The notes under the pieces were generated by a model that saw only the letters and a program-made list of their open reading frames with translations, ran no database searches and was not told the DNA's origin. Of a DNA stretch of 38,704 nt, positions 29,140 through 37,186 are shown piece after piece. The position numbers and the translations under genes are program-made. Position 1 is the stretch's first letter. Every line of letters begins with the position of its first letter. Origin of the DNA: Bacteroidota bacterium (GTDB lineage: Bacteria; Bacteroidota; Ignavibacteria; Ignavibacteriales; Ignavibacteriaceae); the NCBI GenBank assembly GCA_023475265.1, contig JAMCWE010000119.1, forward strand, positions 1-38,704, given 5' to 3'.

Positions 29140-29760
29140 ATGATCAAAAAAGGAAAAATAAAAATTGCAGTTACCGGCAGCATTGGTTCCGGAAAGTCAG
29201 CATTTTGCAGTTACCTAAATGAAATTGGGATTCCAATAATAAATGTGGATAACGAATCCAAAAAGTTATTGGAGACAGATAAAGAGATAAAAGAAAACAT
29301 TATAAAATCTTTTGGGAAAGAATCATTTGTAAACGGTAAACCAAATAAATTATTTATTGCTGAGAAGGTTTTTTCGAATCCTCAGAATGTTCAAAAAATT
29401 AATTCAATCGTACATCCCAAAGTTATTAAAAAAGTTAATATCTTAGCGGAAGAAATTTTGCAAAATAATGATATTGTAGCGGCAGAGGCGGCTCTGATCT
29501 TTGAAGCGAACATGGAAAATCTTTTTGATTATGTTGTATTAGTTACAGCAACCGAAAAGATAAGAATGAATAGAAAAACGCAATCAGATAATTTGTCCAG
29601 AGAACAATTTCTAAAAAGAAATGACAACCAAATACCGGATATTGAAAAAATGAAACGAGCAGATTTTGTTTTTGAAAACAATGATGGGATAGATGATTTA
29701 AAGAATAAAGCCCTTCTATTAATTAATATTCTAAAAGGACTATTGACCACAAATGCTTAA
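29140..29760 (+). CDS. coaE: Dephospho-CoA kinase
   Basis: 206 residues. The P-loop is G13-SIGSGK-S20. It is followed by the usual IINVDNESKKLLE region, a lid segment, and VVLVTATEKIRMNR with IRMNRKTQSDNLSREQFLKR. It phosphorylates the 3' hydroxyl of dephospho-CoA, the last step in coenzyme A synthesis, in the cytoplasm. The length is normal. The stop overlaps the pheA start by 8 bases (ATGCTTAA), implying coupled translation. Confidence 0.93.
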   Translation: MIKKGKIKIAVTGSIGSGKSAFCSYLNEIGIPIINVDNESKKLLETDKEIKENIIKSFGKESFVNGKPNKLFIAEKVFSNPQNVQKINSIVHPKVIKKVNILAEEILQNNDIVAAEAALIFEANMENLFDYVVLVTATEKIRMNRKTQSDNLSREQFLKRNDNQIPDIEKMKRADFVFENNDGIDDLKNKALLLINILKGLLTTNA

Positions 29761-30586
29761 AATTGCCTTCCAAGGTGAACGCGGCGCTTTTAGCGAAACT
29801 GCATCTAAAAAAATGTTCAGCGAAAATATTCAAATTTCACCTTCATTTTCCTTCGAAGATGTTTTTACTAAAGTAAAAAATAATCATGTTGACTACGGCG
29901 TAATTCCGATTGAAAATTCTTTATATGGAAGTGTGTTTGAATCTTACGATTTACTTCTTCAATATTCACTAACAATAATCGGTGAATTAAACCTTCAGAT
30001 AAATCACCACTTGCTTGCAAATCAGAACTATGAATTAAATGAATTAAAAAAAATTTATTCGCATCCGCAAGCTTTGGGGCAATGTTCTATATTTTTGAAG
30101 ACATTAAAAAATGCTGAATTAGTTCCGGCTTACGATACAGCAGGTTCTGCTTTAATGTTAATGAATGATAAAGTAATTCCAGCTGCTGCTATAGCAAGCA
30201 GAGAAGCAGCAGATATTTACAAGCTAAAAATTTTGAAAAGCAATATCCAGAATAATCAAGAGAACTATACTAGATTTTTAGCAATAAGTAAAAAGCAAAT
30301 TCATAAAGAATTTAAGAATCCCAAAACCTCAATATGTTTTGAGCTTAAAAGTATGCCTGGCGCTTTATTCAGAGCGTTGAGTGTTTTTGCTTTGCGGGAT
30401 ATTGATTTGCTTAAAATTGAGTCGAGGCCAATACCACATAAACCATTTGAATATAATTTTTATCTTGATATGAAAGGCAGCCTTTCCGATGACAAAATTA
30501 AGAAAGCTCTAAACCATTTGGCAGAGATTTCGTTAAGCATAAAAGAATTCGGAACATATGAGGCTGGCAAAACATTTAAGAGTTAA
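29753..30586 (+). CDS. pheA: Prephenate dehydratase (monofunctional, with ACT domain)
   Basis: 277 residues. The catalytic domain starts at LKIAFQGERGAFSE and includes VIPIENSLYGSVFESYDLL, the HPQALGQC segment and the TRFLAISKK active-site motif. The ACT domain (about 195-275) has GALFRALSVFALRDIDLLKI and ESRPIP, the usual phenylalanine-binding signature. It converts prephenate to phenylpyruvate and is expected to be inhibited by phenylalanine. No chorismate mutase domain is fused here; one sits in the mltG homologue three genes downstream. It overlaps coaE by 8 bases. No tyrA or aro genes are nearby. Confidence 0.95.
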   Translation: MLKIAFQGERGAFSETASKKMFSENIQISPSFSFEDVFTKVKNNHVDYGVIPIENSLYGSVFESYDLLLQYSLTIIGELNLQINHHLLANQNYELNELKKIYSHPQALGQCSIFLKTLKNAELVPAYDTAGSALMLMNDKVIPAAAIASREAADIYKLKILKSNIQNNQENYTRFLAISKKQIHKEFKNPKTSICFELKSMPGALFRALSVFALRDIDLLKIESRPIPHKPFEYNFYLDMKGSLSDDKIKKALNHLAEISLSIKEFGTYEAGKTFKS

Positions 30587-30748: not shown

Positions 30749-31651
30749 GTGTCGTTCTTTAACAAAATTATTGTAGCGATTGTCCAGTTAATGCCAAAAG
30801 CTATGGTCGGCTTTTTTTCCAAAAGATATATTGCCGGCGAAACATTGGACAATGCAGTTGAACTGGTAAAAAAACTAAACGAAAAAAACATTTATGCAAC
30901 CATAGATGTTTTAGGTGAATCGGTAAAAAATAAAGAAGAAGCTGTATCAGCAAAGAATAAAGCTCTTGAAGTTTTAGCAACAATAGCAAAGAATAATTTA
31001 AAAGCTAATCTTTCAATCAAGCCAACTCAAATGGGATTAGCAATCGATGAAAATTTTGCTCTGAAACAAATATCAGAGCTTATTGAGAAAGCGCGAGAGA
31101 ATAATAATTTTGTTCGTATCGATATGGAAGATTCACCATACACAGATTTAACATTCAGCTTGTATAAAAAGTTGAGAAATAACTATGATAATGTTGGTGT
31201 AGTAATTCAAGCTTATTTAAAGAGAACGTATGACGATGTAATTCTTTTGAATAAGCTGGGAACAAATTACCGTTTATGTAAAGGAATTTATATTGAATCA
31301 CCAAACATTGCTTATAAGGAAAAACAAGTAATTCGAGAAAATTATTTAAAGATATTAGAAGCGATATTAAAGACAGGAAATTATATTGGTATTGCAACTC
31401 ATGATGAATATCTTATTAATAACGCATCAAAACTTGTTAAGGAATTAAATCTGACGAATGATAAGTTTGAATTTCAAATGTTACTTGGTGTTAGAGAAGA
31501 TCTAAGAGATAAAATAAATTCTGCCGGTCACAAAATTAGAATTTATGTTCCGTTCGGTAAAGATTGGTATGCATATTCAGTAAGAAGATTGAAAGAAAAT
31601 CCTCAAATAGCAGGATATGTTTTTAAAAGTTTATTTTCATTAAAGAAATGA
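30749..31651 (+). CDS. Proline dehydrogenase-like FAD enzyme
   Basis: 300 residues, the (beta/alpha)8 domain of monofunctional proline dehydrogenase (PutA N-terminal type). Visible are ATIDVLGESVKNKEEA, LSIKPTQMGLAID, FVRIDMEDSPYTD, YRLCKGIYIESPNIA and the closing YSVRRLKENPQIAGY typical of the family. It oxidises proline to pyrroline-5-carboxylate with FAD, probably membrane-associated and passing electrons to quinone. The start is GTG with AGGAG (30738-30742) 6 bases upstream. The stop overlaps tsaD by 4 bases (ATGA). No P5C dehydrogenase gene is in the window. A 162-base AT-rich gap separates it from pheA. Confidence 0.88.
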   Translation: MSFFNKIIVAIVQLMPKAMVGFFSKRYIAGETLDNAVELVKKLNEKNIYATIDVLGESVKNKEEAVSAKNKALEVLATIAKNNLKANLSIKPTQMGLAIDENFALKQISELIEKARENNNFVRIDMEDSPYTDLTFSLYKKLRNNYDNVGVVIQAYLKRTYDDVILLNKLGTNYRLCKGIYIESPNIAYKEKQVIRENYLKILEAILKTGNYIGIATHDEYLINNASKLVKELNLTNDKFEFQMLLGVREDLRDKINSAGHKIRIYVPFGKDWYAYSVRRLKENPQIAGYVFKSLFSLKK

Positions 31652-32661
31652 ATGTCTTAGGTATAGAAAGTTCATGTGATGAAACTTCAGTTGCAATAAT
31701 TTCTGATGAGAAATTACTGGCTAATTTAATTTCATCTCAAGATTTTCATTCCAAATATGGCGGAGTTGTTCCGGAATTATCCAGTCGGGCACATTTACAA
31801 ATTATCATTCCGTTAATAAAAGATGCTCTTGAAAAATCGAATTTAACTCTTAACGATATTGATTTAATATGTTCAACTGCTGGACCCGGATTAATCGGCG
31901 CATTATTGGTCGGTTTAACATTTGCTAAGGGTTTGGCATTTTCAATGAGAAAGCCATTTGTAGCGGTTAATCATATTGAAGGACATATTTATTCCGGATT
32001 TTTAATGGAAGAAAAACCGGAATTTCCTTATTTAGCTTTAGTTGTTTCCGGCGGACACACACTTTTACTTTTAGTTGAAAGTTTTTCAAAAATTCATAAA
32101 TTAGGATCAACGGTTGATGATGCAGCTGGCGAGGCTTTTGATAAAGTATCTAAGCTGCTTGGACTTGGATATCCTGGCGGACCAAAAATTCAAGGTGCTT
32201 CTGAAAATGGAAATCCAAAGAAAATAAAATTTCCAATTGCAGAATTAAAAGATCCTTACAATTTTTCTTTCAGCGGGTTAAAGACTTCAGTTCTGAGATA
32301 TGTTCAAAATAATTATACGATTAAAAAAAATATTCCCGAAAATGATTTAGCGGATATTGCAGCATCTTTTCAGAAAGCAGTTGTAAGAGCTTTGATAAAA
32401 AATACTGAGAAGGCATTAAATAATCTTGAAGTAAATTCAATTTCCCTTGTCGGTGGAGTTGCAGCGAATCAATCTTTAAGAAATTCAATAATTGAATTAG
32501 GAAATAAGTTTAATAAAAAAGTTGTAATTCCAAGGATGGAATTTTGCGGTGACAATGCTGCAATGATTGCATTCAGAGGTTTGAAGCTTTATGAATTAGG
32601 CTATGAATCAAAATTAAATTTCAGTCCCTTTCCTAGTTTAGCAAAAGAACATTTCGCCTAA
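31648..32661 (+). CDS. tsaD: tRNA N6-adenosine threonylcarbamoyltransferase
   Basis: 337 residues, full length. It begins MNVLGIESSCDETSVAII and has the metal-binding H109 and H113 in VNHIEGHIYSG, then the VSGGHTLLLLV nucleotide loop, DDAAGEAFDKVSKLLGLGYP, and GGVAANQSLR. The C-terminal FCGDNAAMIAF gives the final metal ligand Asp. It transfers the threonylcarbamoyl group to A37 of ANN-decoding tRNAs together with TsaB/TsaE in the cytoplasm. ATG overlaps the preceding stop (ATGA), so it is translationally coupled to the proline dehydrogenase gene. Confidence 0.96.
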   Translation: MNVLGIESSCDETSVAIISDEKLLANLISSQDFHSKYGGVVPELSSRAHLQIIIPLIKDALEKSNLTLNDIDLICSTAGPGLIGALLVGLTFAKGLAFSMRKPFVAVNHIEGHIYSGFLMEEKPEFPYLALVVSGGHTLLLLVESFSKIHKLGSTVDDAAGEAFDKVSKLLGLGYPGGPKIQGASENGNPKKIKFPIAELKDPYNFSFSGLKTSVLRYVQNNYTIKKNIPENDLADIAASFQKAVVRALIKNTEKALNNLEVNSISLVGGVAANQSLRNSIIELGNKFNKKVVIPRMEFCGDNAAMIAFRGLKLYELGYESKLNFSPFPSLAKEHFA

Positions 32662-32746
32662 AGTTTAGAAAAATTAAAATATAGTTGAATATTCAAAAAA
32701 TAATTTCTAATAAGATTCTGAATTATATAATACGATAGATTACTTG

Positions 32747-34138
32747 ATGGAAAATTTAATAAATAAAATTGAGAACGAATTAAATTCACTTAGCAAAGAA
32801 GAAAGGGAGGAAATATTAAAAAAGCTTCGTGATGGTATTGATGATATTGATAAACAATTAGTAAAGCTTTTAGTAAAGCGCACATTACATTCTGTTTTAA
32901 TCGGACGAGTAAAACAATCAATGAATCTTGCGACTTACAATCCTAAAAGAGAAAAGGAAATTAGTCAACGAATATCATCATTGACGGAAGAACCATTAAC
33001 CAAAGAAGCATTGCTCAGGATTTACGAACGAATTTTAGATGAATCAAGAGCCATTCAAAGAGAAGAATTAGACAAAGGCAAAATATTTAAAATATCCGGG
33101 AAGAAGATTAAGAAAGGTTTTAATAAACTTTTGTCCAAAAAAGAATTTTTCATTGTTGCTTTTTTCTTTTTGATTATACTTGGTGTTTTGTATTCTACTT
33201 TCTTTACGCCGAATTATTATAAATCAACTTCTCCAATAAAAGTTGAATTAAAATTAGGCGAAACACTTTCTGAACTTTCAAATGATCTTTATTCCAAAGG
33301 TATTATTCCGAGTAAGACAAATTTTAAAATTGCCGCTTTTATTTATGGCGCTGAAAAAAAAATAAAAGCTGCCAGATATTCAATTCCTAACGGATTAAGC
33401 TATTTAGATTTGCTTGATTATTTCATGAAAGGTAAAGGCGATCTTTTAAAATTAGTTACTATTATTCCAGGATCAACATTAGAATATGTTGCATCAACGC
33501 TACAGCATGATACATTTATTGATTCGGCTGAAGTTTTATCATTATCTCGAAATAGATTCTTTTTAGATTCTCTAGGAATTAATTCTCCGTCTATGCTTGG
33601 ATATATTCTTCCAAGACATTATTTTATTTACGAGCGAAGCTCTGTTGATGAAGCGTTAAGAATTTTATACAGCGGCTTTCATAAATTTATGTCTGATTCG
33701 TTAAAACAACGAGCAAAAAAAAATGGATATACAATTCCTCAAATAATTACTGTTGCATCAATAGTAGAAGGCGAGACGAATAAAAAATCCGAGATGCCTA
33801 TTATTGCCGGAGTTTATTACAACCGGCTCAAACAAGGAATGAAATTGCAAGCTGATCCAACAATTGAATTTGCCAAGAAAGGTAAGTGGGGAAGACTTAA
33901 TTTTAATGACTTGCAAATAAAATCTCCGTATAATACTTATAAGCATTCAGGCCTGCCTCCAGGCCCAATAAACAATCCGGATAAAGCTGCTATTTTAGCA
34001 GCGCTGTTTCCGAATAAAAATAATTACTTGTATTTTGTTGCAAATGGAAATGGCGGACATCATTTCTCTACTAATTTTCAAGAGCATCTGCAAAATGCCA
34101 ATAAATATAGAAAGTGGCTTGACACTTTAAAAAAATAA
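32747..34138 (+). CDS. Chorismate mutase (AroQ) fused to MltG-type endolytic murein transglycosylase
   Basis: 463 residues. Residues 27-105 match an AroQ-type chorismate mutase: LRDGIDDIDKQLVKLLVKR, then LIGRVKQSMNL, YNPKREKEI and DESRAIQRE. Aligned by eye to the E. coli enzyme, R28, R45, K56, R68, E69, S100 and Q104 equal its R11, R28, K39, R51, E52, S84 and Q88; only D48 differs (N65). A linker and a transmembrane helix (about 134-153) follow. Then comes an MltG/YceG domain with VELKLGETLSELSNDL, ASIVEGETNKKSEMP (catalytic Glu), GVYYNRLKQGMKLQADPTIEF and YNTYKHSGLPPGPINNP. The N-terminus would be cytoplasmic and MltG periplasmic. MltG cuts nascent glycan strands and sets their length. ATG 32747 is chosen over TTG 32744. 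Confidence 0.9.
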   Translation: MENLINKIENELNSLSKEEREEILKKLRDGIDDIDKQLVKLLVKRTLHSVLIGRVKQSMNLATYNPKREKEISQRISSLTEEPLTKEALLRIYERILDESRAIQREELDKGKIFKISGKKIKKGFNKLLSKKEFFIVAFFFLIILGVLYSTFFTPNYYKSTSPIKVELKLGETLSELSNDLYSKGIIPSKTNFKIAAFIYGAEKKIKAARYSIPNGLSYLDLLDYFMKGKGDLLKLVTIIPGSTLEYVASTLQHDTFIDSAEVLSLSRNRFFLDSLGINSPSMLGYILPRHYFIYERSSVDEALRILYSGFHKFMSDSLKQRAKKNGYTIPQIITVASIVEGETNKKSEMPIIAGVYYNRLKQGMKLQADPTIEFAKKGKWGRLNFNDLQIKSPYNTYKHSGLPPGPINNPDKAAILAALFPNKNNYLYFVANGNGGHHFSTNFQEHLQNANKYRKWLDTLKK

Positions 34139-35947: not shown

Positions 35948-37186
35948 TTAATGATATAAATAATACTTCTTCGATAATTGTTTGAAACTTTTCACATCTT
36001 TATTTAAGAAATCTTTCACGTCCCCATATTTCATATTTTTCGAAAATAGTTCTCTTACTTTTGAAGTACCGCAAACTTTATCAAAGAAATTGATTCTTGA
36101 TTGATCAGCAAGTTTAAAAGGATTTTTATCGGGATACATTTCAGTTTGCACTTGCATAAATAAAAATTGTAAGCTCATTAAATTAACTTTATGATAATCA
36201 GTGAAATAAATTTCAACTCCATGAAGTTCTTTTCCTTTATCTCTACCATAAAATGGATTAAAATTTATTGGCCTAAAAAGTACACCTTTAAGTCCGAGGT
36301 CATTCATTTTATTTGCTAATGAATCGGCATCAATCCATTCGGCAGCAAAAATCTGGAAGGGAAGAGTGTAGCCGACACCTTCAGTTAAAACTCCAAGCTC
36401 TCCCATCATTCCGCTAGCTACGTAATATTCCGGAGTGTCAAAATGTGGAATATGCGGAGAAGTCATTACCCAGGGCAGTCCAGTATTTTCAAATGACATT
36501 TTTCTTTTCCATCCCTTCATTGGAACAACTGTAAGATTACATTTCTCACCATTCTTCAACATACCTTCATCATTCAATAATTTTGCAAGCTCGCCGCAAG
36601 TTAATCCATATACATAAGGAATTTTGAATTGGCTAACGAAAGATTCAAAACCATCTTCAACTAAATTACCTTCCACGATATTTCCACCAAGAGGATTGGG
36701 ACGATCAAGTACTACCAAAGGGATATTATTCTCTGCAGCCGCTTCCATAGCTTTTCCCATCGTGCTGATATAAGTATAAGAACGGCAGCCGATATCTTGA
36801 ATATCATAAACAAGAACATCAATATTTTTCAGCATCTCTTTAGAAGGTTTGCTTGTTTTGCCATAAAGGGAATAAACAGGTAAACCGGTTTCTTTGTCAG
36901 TATATGATTCGACATAAGCACCGGCAGAATAATCTCCTCTAACTCCATGTTCCGGACCGAATAATGCAACCAGCTTTACGTTCTTTGCATGATAAAGAAT
37001 ATCGACAGTTGATTGCAGCTTTGAATCCACACCGGTTGGATTTGTAATTAAGCCAACTTTTTTGCCTTCTAGAATTTTGAAATTTTGATCACGCAAAACT
37101 TCAATTCCGGTTTTTACTTTTGGAGTTTGAGAATAAGAGATTGTTATAGCTAATAGCGATATGATAAATATTAAATAAGATTTCAT
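35948..37186 (-). CDS. namZ: Exo-beta-N-acetylmuramidase NamZ-type (DUF1343)
   Basis: 412 residues with a signal peptide (YLIFIISLLAITISYS). The DUF1343 fold shows GKKVGLITNPTGVDS, VALFGPEHGVRGDYSAGAYV, LVYDIQDIGCRSYTYISTMG and VVLDRPNPLGGNIVEGNLV. Also visible are VMTSPHIPHFDTPEYYVASG and LTEGVGYTLPFQIFAAEWID. Members of this family (GH171) release N-acetylmuramic acid from peptidoglycan fragments, an established activity of NamZ; the substrate here is inferred. It is exported, so it would act on wall material in the periplasm or outside. The gene symbol reflects family membership. It lies 79 bases downstream of hutI in the same direction. Confidence 0.9.
   Translation of the reverse strand: MKSYLIFIISLLAITISYSQTPKVKTGIEVLRDQNFKILEGKKVGLITNPTGVDSKLQSTVDILYHAKNVKLVALFGPEHGVRGDYSAGAYVESYTDKETGLPVYSLYGKTSKPSKEMLKNIDVLVYDIQDIGCRSYTYISTMGKAMEAAAENNIPLVVLDRPNPLGGNIVEGNLVEDGFESFVSQFKIPYVYGLTCGELAKLLNDEGMLKNGEKCNLTVVPMKGWKRKMSFENTGLPWVMTSPHIPHFDTPEYYVASGMMGELGVLTEGVGYTLPFQIFAAEWIDADSLANKMNDLGLKGVLFRPINFNPFYGRDKGKELHGVEIYFTDYHKVNLMSLQFLFMQVQTEMYPDKNPFKLADQSRINFFDKVCGTSKVRELFSKNMKYGDVKDFLNKDVKSFKQLSKKYYLYH

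Follow-up and report, generated by a model that had tools for sequence, protein, structure and literature searches.

Chorismate mutase (CM) is often described as one half of fusion proteins (PMC10520331), and fusions of the AroQ mutase are already known. In CM-PDT (PheA), CM-PDH (TyrA) and DAHPS-CM the partners are cytosolic and belong to the same pathway. These proteins share with the one analysed here the three-helix mutase fold and the active-site set, whereas the partner in our case is a predicted membrane-anchored lytic transglycosylase, MltG. The CM-CDT fusions of gamma- and beta-proteobacteria are, like CM-MltG, a rare case of an AroQ mutase joined to another enzyme, and their authors report no catalytic benefit from the linkage (PMC10520331). 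However, unlike CM-MltG, they combine an exported AroQ-gamma mutase with the enzyme of the next step, and a cytosolic mutase is present in the same genomes as well (PMC10520331).

Regarding MltG (YceG), the E. coli protein of 340 aa shares with ours the complete domain and the glutamate E218, equivalent to E343 here, but it does not have an N-terminal domain of this kind. A few MltG homologues are described with an extended cytosolic segment; the one of E. faecalis is predicted to be disordered, and phosphorylation there is reported to influence function (PMC12369325). Our literature searches of open-licence PMC papers did not find a CM-MltG fusion, in agreement with an earlier note on this DNA, which knew of none described. 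A paper on MltG/YceG tabulates TyrA separately (PMC7481392), and the main text of a survey of fusions mentions chorismate mutase once, for the CDT case (PMC4921024). The MltG partner is apparently new, as far as we found.

Domains and predicted structure

The features of the locus are collected in Table 1, with positions in the window, that is, the whole stretch of 38,704 nucleotides that was analysed. The frame was read from its first ATG, and a TTG at 32744 is an alternative start. The earlier note had read this frame as one protein joining a CM domain, a membrane helix and a complete MltG, and the open reading frame, Pfam and the predicted structure all agree with this.

Table 1. Features of the CM-MltG locus and its upstream genes.
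Feature	Positions	Strand	Basis
CM-MltG fusion protein, 463 aa	32747..34138	+	single open frame; CM_2 and YceG both above cut-off
AroQ chorismate mutase domain, residues 27-105	32825..33061	+	Pfam CM_2; PheA alignment; AF2 domain model
Flexible lysine-rich linker, residues 106-130	33062..33136	+	pLDDT <50 at 111-127; lysines read in translation
Transmembrane helix, residues 131-153	33137..33205	+	helix in model; hydrophobic run judged by eye
MltG/YceG lytic transglycosylase domain (predicted), residues 166-453	33242..34105	+	Pfam YceG; fold matches
Codon for E343, at the position of the catalytic E218 in E. coli MltG	33773..33775	+	alignment
Stand-alone prephenate dehydratase (PDT + ACT)	29753..30586	+	Pfam
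tsaD, immediate upstream gene, conserved neighbour	31648..32661	+	locus comparison

The Pfam search that the earlier note had proposed gave 64.1 bits for CM_2 (cut-off 27) and 261.3 bits for YceG (cut-off 32.4), the latter covering profile positions 1-275 of 275. Furthermore, the NCBIfam model of MltG, TIGR00247, matched with 212.5 bits against a cut-off of 103.4, and the E. coli-type YceG model PRK10270 stayed under its cut-off (129.5 against 532). The NCBIfam equivalog models of chorismate mutase also match under their cut-offs, the best of them being TIGR01807 with 52.8 against 69.55; judging by their names, these look like models of sub-lineages. The MltG part has a complete YceG domain, the aligned catalytic glutamate and a single N-terminal membrane helix. 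E343 is invariant in the 37 rows of the alignment (37/37), and E218Q of E. coli MltG is described as catalytically inactive (PMC8135044).

An AlphaFold2 monomer prediction of the full protein, built on 37 sequences, reached a mean pLDDT of 86.7. In this model the CM helices span residues 17-58, 66-77 and 86-112, a further helix spans the membrane segment, the linker between them is loose, and the remainder folds as an MltG domain. The CM domain modelled alone had a pLDDT of 93.6 and recovered the AroQ three-helix fold, with query-normalised TM scores of 0.84-0.93 to 2d8e, 5j6f_A, 6al9 and 1ecm, which are chorismate mutase structures. With the full protein, the fold search matched the CM part to 5j6f (Z 11.1), 1ecm (Z 10.8) and 2d8e (Z 10.8); Z values of about 10-11 are weak on their own for a helical bundle, and here sequence and fold agree. 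The MltG part was matched to 4iiw (Z 26.2) and 8yq7 (Z 25.5), and also to the E. coli structure 2r1f.

The lysine-rich stretch on the N-terminal side of the membrane helix points to a mutase on the cytosolic side and an MltG on the outside. Moreover, the E. coli AroQ-alpha mutase is described as a dimer of intertwined protomers that has two active sites (PMC10520331), so two MltG domains would be brought together in a catalytically active fusion. It would be a natural MltG presumably forced into dimers, and consequently a direct test of how important the oligomer state of MltG is.

A PheA-type CM-PDT fusion does not apply, since the dehydratase of this locus is a separate gene, three genes upstream, in which Pfam gives PDT and ACT only and no mutase, as the earlier note had stated. 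An assembly accident of this one genome was discarded, since the fused frame occurs in many genomes assembled separately. Another peptidoglycan gene is found nearby: a NamZ exo-beta-N-acetylmuramidase (NamZ_N and NamZ_C) lies at 35948-37186 of the minus strand, two genes downstream of CM-MltG and in the opposite orientation.

Active site, selection and supply of the mutase step

As the catalytic set of E. coli PheA we used R11, R28, K39, R51, E52, S84 and Q88, which we take to be the relevant residues. In the alignment with PheA, R11, R28, K39, D48, R51, E52, S84 and Q88 correspond to R28, R45, K56, N65, R68, E69, S100 and Q104, respectively. This list is identical to the one made by eye in the earlier note, with seven of eight active-site residues kept and the change of D48 to N65 as the only one.

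Several loci come from a genome represented twice, and residues, gaps and neighbours were therefore counted on unique rows. Among the unique loci, R28, R45, K56, R68 and E69 are kept in all of the fused (37/37) and all of the adjacent (91/91) CMs. The S100 position is S or T in 37/37 fused and 85/91 adjacent domains, and the Q104 position is Q or E in 37/37 and 90/91, with one gap. The D48 site was S in 20 and N in 17 of the 37 unique fused domains, and it varies among the adjacent ones too. Since this position is variable across the subfamily whereas the core is fixed, the D48N change is no sign of lost function, and a mutase inactivated by it was rejected. The core active site, kept in every fused domain, points to catalysis. 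The domain looks catalytic, as the earlier note had considered possible.

The CM domain is under strong purifying selection. Among eight pairs, four gave an estimate of dS for this domain (0.47-1.36, so the values are rough), and their dN/dS was 0.027-0.033; in the other pairs dS was saturated. The linker values, from only 22-25 codons, were too noisy to be used. As a separate observation, W replaces the catalytic E52 in the CM domain of five DAHPS-CM-sized proteins (L073, L074, L075, L092 and L101), among which the DAHPS-CM architecture was checked by Pfam for L073.

Regarding the rest of the genome, the profile search of the contigs gave one CM_2 and one YceG match, both of them in CM-MltG, and no match to the AroH-type mutase (CM_1). 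The check for another chorismate mutase, suggested in the earlier note, has thus returned none by either profile; the source assembly, in 270 contigs, reaches 96.8% completeness at 3.7% contamination, which leaves a small chance of an overlooked mutase. The genome also has the stand-alone PDT, one PDH adjoining a DAHP synthase and four DAHP_synth_1 matches. None of these four is at the single CM_2 site, so a mutase fused to DAHP synthase was rejected. The presence of a stand-alone PDT and a PDH means that the mutase step is needed from elsewhere.

The domain could instead be an inactive relative of the mutases or a related enzyme, for instance an isochorismate-pyruvate lyase. The NCBIfam cut-offs that the domain did not reach would fit this, and PchB structures do appear in the fold search, lower down. 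However, the closest folds are those of chorismate mutases, the catalytic set is intact, the selection on the domain is strong and purifying, and in most of the linked genomes searched this is the only CM_2, usually with a PDT present. We therefore give very little credit to such a reading.

Distribution of fused and separate forms

The earlier note had proposed a search for the same domain order in other Ignavibacteria, and the fusion does recur there. In the family of the window, 14 of the 61 genomes have the fused protein; all 14 are without another CM_2, and a stand-alone PDT is present in 13 of them. A separate CM gene beside mltG was found in 20 of the 61, being the sole CM_2 in 13 of these 20. 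In this survey the CM and PDT types were assigned by frame size, and whether a CM is fused or adjacent was read from the loci, directly or via coordinates on the same contig.

Each of the 27 family genomes that carry PDT as a stand-alone gene has a CM of some kind, which is linked to mltG in 21 and present only as a DAHPS-CM-sized frame in 6. The fusion is absent from the 16 genomes where PDT lies within a frame of 668-712 aa, and 6 of these retain a separate CM beside mltG. The CM-PDT-DAHPS identity of this size class was verified on one protein of the family and one of the sister family, both of which are three-enzyme CM-PDT-ACT-DAHP synthase proteins (L072:3195-5210, minus strand, 672 aa, and L121:5482-7551, plus strand, 690 aa, respectively).

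The supply of the step does not appear to be the sole reason for retention, since 7 of the 34 mltG-linked family genomes keep the linked CM beside another one (6 CM-PDT-DAHPS-sized and 1 DAHPS-CM-sized). Furthermore, 6 linked genomes gave no PDT match, one of them fused and five adjacent (G216, G507, G509, G525, G530 and G542, of which G507 and G509 are 76% and 81% complete), and the CM residues are kept in all six. This counts against a pure supply role.

Neither CM_2 nor PDT was found in 8 of the 61 family genomes, some of them incomplete (G294, G504, G520, G526, G529, G537, G545 and G548), and these may be unable to make Phe. In the locus of G294 (L076), mltG comes directly after tsaD with no CM in between.

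At the level of the class, CM_2 was found in 126 of 245 sampled genomes, and the other 119 had no match at E 0.001. By hand count, 59 of the 126 have an mltG-linked CM, 19 fused and 40 adjacent; for most sites of the sister family f2 and a number of frames of 344-405 aa, the unlinked status in this tally was taken from frame size. The remaining CMs of the class, many of them classified by frame size, are in frames of DAHPS-CM, CM-PDT, CM-PDT-DAHPS or chorismate synthase-CM type, or are lone CMs. G352, a fused genome of the class outside the family of the window, carries a CM-PDT protein as its second mutase.

We also scanned the genomes of 84,980 species, one per species, using the alignment of the CM part and a single peptide pattern, which confirmed 234 loci; the named ones are the best 80 of these and represent one CM subfamily, not all CMs. 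Among these best 80 of 234 loci, CM is fused to MltG in 24, is followed directly by a separate mltG in 43 and is without mltG in 13. The fused ones carry the titles Ignavibacteria(les), Ignavibacteriaceae, Bacteroidetes or Bacteroidota, the adjacent ones include Calditrichota and Rhodothermales, and those without mltG are titled mainly Acidobacteria or Blastocatellia. The closest relative named among the 80 is JAKALM010000010.1 (L123, 'Bacteroidetes bacterium WY5.bin127'), with a CM 95% identical to ours. The 36 genomes behind named loci that were searched, covering 24/24 fused and 12/43 adjacent loci of the best 80, have only one CM_2 in 35 cases, including all of the fused ones (24/24), and the exception is of the adjacent type. 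The CM and MltG HMMs used for the locus calls were trained on these same loci.

A one-off fusion in the genus of the window is discarded, since the fusion recurs in other genomes of the class and among the named loci. A linkage of CM and mltG general to all relatives is contradicted by the class genomes without CM_2 and by the sister family, where the frames that hold the domain measure 387-405 or 673-736 aa in 26 of the 27 CM_2 genomes, the remaining one (L246) having a lone CM of 97 aa with mltG not adjacent. Finally, a length of about 450 aa does not necessarily mean an MltG fusion, because one such frame (L091) is a chorismate synthase-CM and 13 further ones (L249-L261) are all without MltG. 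As side observations, L091:4725-6077 (plus strand, 451 aa) is a chorismate synthase with a C-terminal CM_2 by Pfam, and in L249-L261 (445-452 aa) the first-listed CM stretch is C-terminal in 10/13.

Gene order and origin of the fusion

The gaps between CM and mltG in 91 unique adjacent pairs range from -110 to +87 nt, with a median of -1; the genes overlap in 47 of the pairs, and in 18 of these the shared stretch is exactly 4 nt long. A comparison of a fused and an overlapping locus of the same genus (L082 and L081) showed a one-base gap that offsets the frames in the aligned linker; this linker is divergent, so the placement of the indel is unsure and an assembly error in one of the two genomes is possible. 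A quick tree of 116 MltG domains demands repeated fusion or splitting, with 12 changes required for the fused label, of which well-supported branches force at least 5. The window is placed within a clade of 12 rows, all of them fused (SH-aLRT 100).

Regarding the upstream genes, trpA precedes CM in 10 of the 13 relatives without mltG (from the best 80 of 234 loci). In one of these 13 (L155) a DAHP synthase follows CM, and in a Calditrichota locus (L157) the gene upstream is trpD. Among 129 unique linked loci, 37 fused and 92 adjacent, the nearest upstream gene was trpA in 36 and tsaD in 62, considering the gene types searched within 400 bases. In other lineages the pair is beside YacP, HAD, PGK or ABC genes. 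Most likely, CM derives from the tail of a trp/aromatic operon, with trpA later lost in the family of the window, the direction of these steps being our own reading of the gene orders.

We consider it probable that the protein is a bifunctional membrane protein in which a working housekeeping mutase and an ordinary MltG became joined via their gene neighbourhood, with no coupling required between them. The domains, the fold, the active sites, the sole-copy status, the selection, the gene order and the switching between fused and separate states come from computation. Catalysis, topology, dimer formation, the direction of the steps and a dispensable functional coupling are what we infer from them. 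The N-terminal AroQ domain, in the cytosol, would make prephenate for PDT (to Phe) and PDH (to Tyr), and the C-terminal MltG would cut nascent glycan strands outside the membrane. The mutase gene would once have formed the end of a trp/aromatic operon (trpA-CM), with mltG directly after it and the frames overlapping or almost touching, and small indels or the loss of a stop would have joined both genes more than once.

The earlier note had suggested that the fusion may supply the missing step at the membrane. The supply of the step is supported, as it is the only mutase detected. A purpose of the placement at the membrane, or the sensing of chorismate or prephenate to adjust wall growth that the note gave as an alternative, may not be needed, because a trpA-CM operon tail beside mltG, then an overlap and then a fusion would account for the joined protein on their own. 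In this sense the locus would show a route from an operon remnant to a single protein. This is a recurrent fusion of a primary-metabolism enzyme with a peptidoglycan enzyme, and its metabolic half is usually the sole copy detected in the genome. Therefore, an annotation as MltG alone would conceal the mutase of these genomes.

The fusion might also be a neutral or expression-level outcome, in which a translationally coupled overlapping pair drifted into one frame, with a separate MltG perhaps still made via an internal start or proteolysis. The overlaps with a median of -1 nt and the 18 cases of 4 nt fit this, as do the single-base gap between the fused and overlapping species and the twelve switches on the MltG tree. 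However, every row in the clade of the window is fused, which indicates a stable fused state in that group, and the divergent linker weakens the single-base example. This reading is possible rather than probable, and it is compatible with the bifunctional protein that we prefer.

A regulatory link between the two halves is possible as well. The CM domain could act as a sensor and clamp that dimerises MltG, with chorismate, prephenate or an end product altering the dimer and hence the cutting of glycan. The pair is kept where trpA and tsaD are not adjacent, which exceeds the expectation from simple history, and it is retained across several gene contexts and beside another CM in the seven family genomes mentioned above, the fused state having been gained or lost repeatedly. 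In E. faecalis, substitutions at a phosphorylation site in the cytosolic N-terminus of MltG are reported to change cephalosporin resistance (PMC12369325), and since the cytosolic segment affects function in that species, control of MltG by CM would be conceivable. Nevertheless, the CM domain is without any visible ligand-sensing addition, its core active site is intact in all the fused domains, which favours catalysis, and CM is a separate protein in 43 of the best 80 of 234 loci. Moreover, the linker is floppy in the model and the neighbourhood is accounted for by the trpA-CM history. We consider such a sensor unlikely. A clean test whether Rosetta-stone fusions always imply functional coupling is offered by these proteins.

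A mutase that is both catalyst and aromatic sensor, whose intertwined dimer at the inner face would set the dimer state of MltG and its cutting rate, seems quite unlikely to us. If true, the length of glycan strands would be tied to the supply of aromatic amino acids, and the CM-mltG pairing and the pabC-mltG pairing of E. coli would be remnants of a general connection of MltG with chorismate metabolism. The pabC gene of E. coli K-12, which belongs to the chorismate pathway, ends 2 bases before mltG (L248:4301-6135). PabC is not known to be related to CM and, unlike the fused CM, it is a separate protein, so the parallel is perhaps a coincidence. The E. coli structure 2r1f, matched by our MltG part, is titled 'predicted aminodeoxychorismate lyase'.
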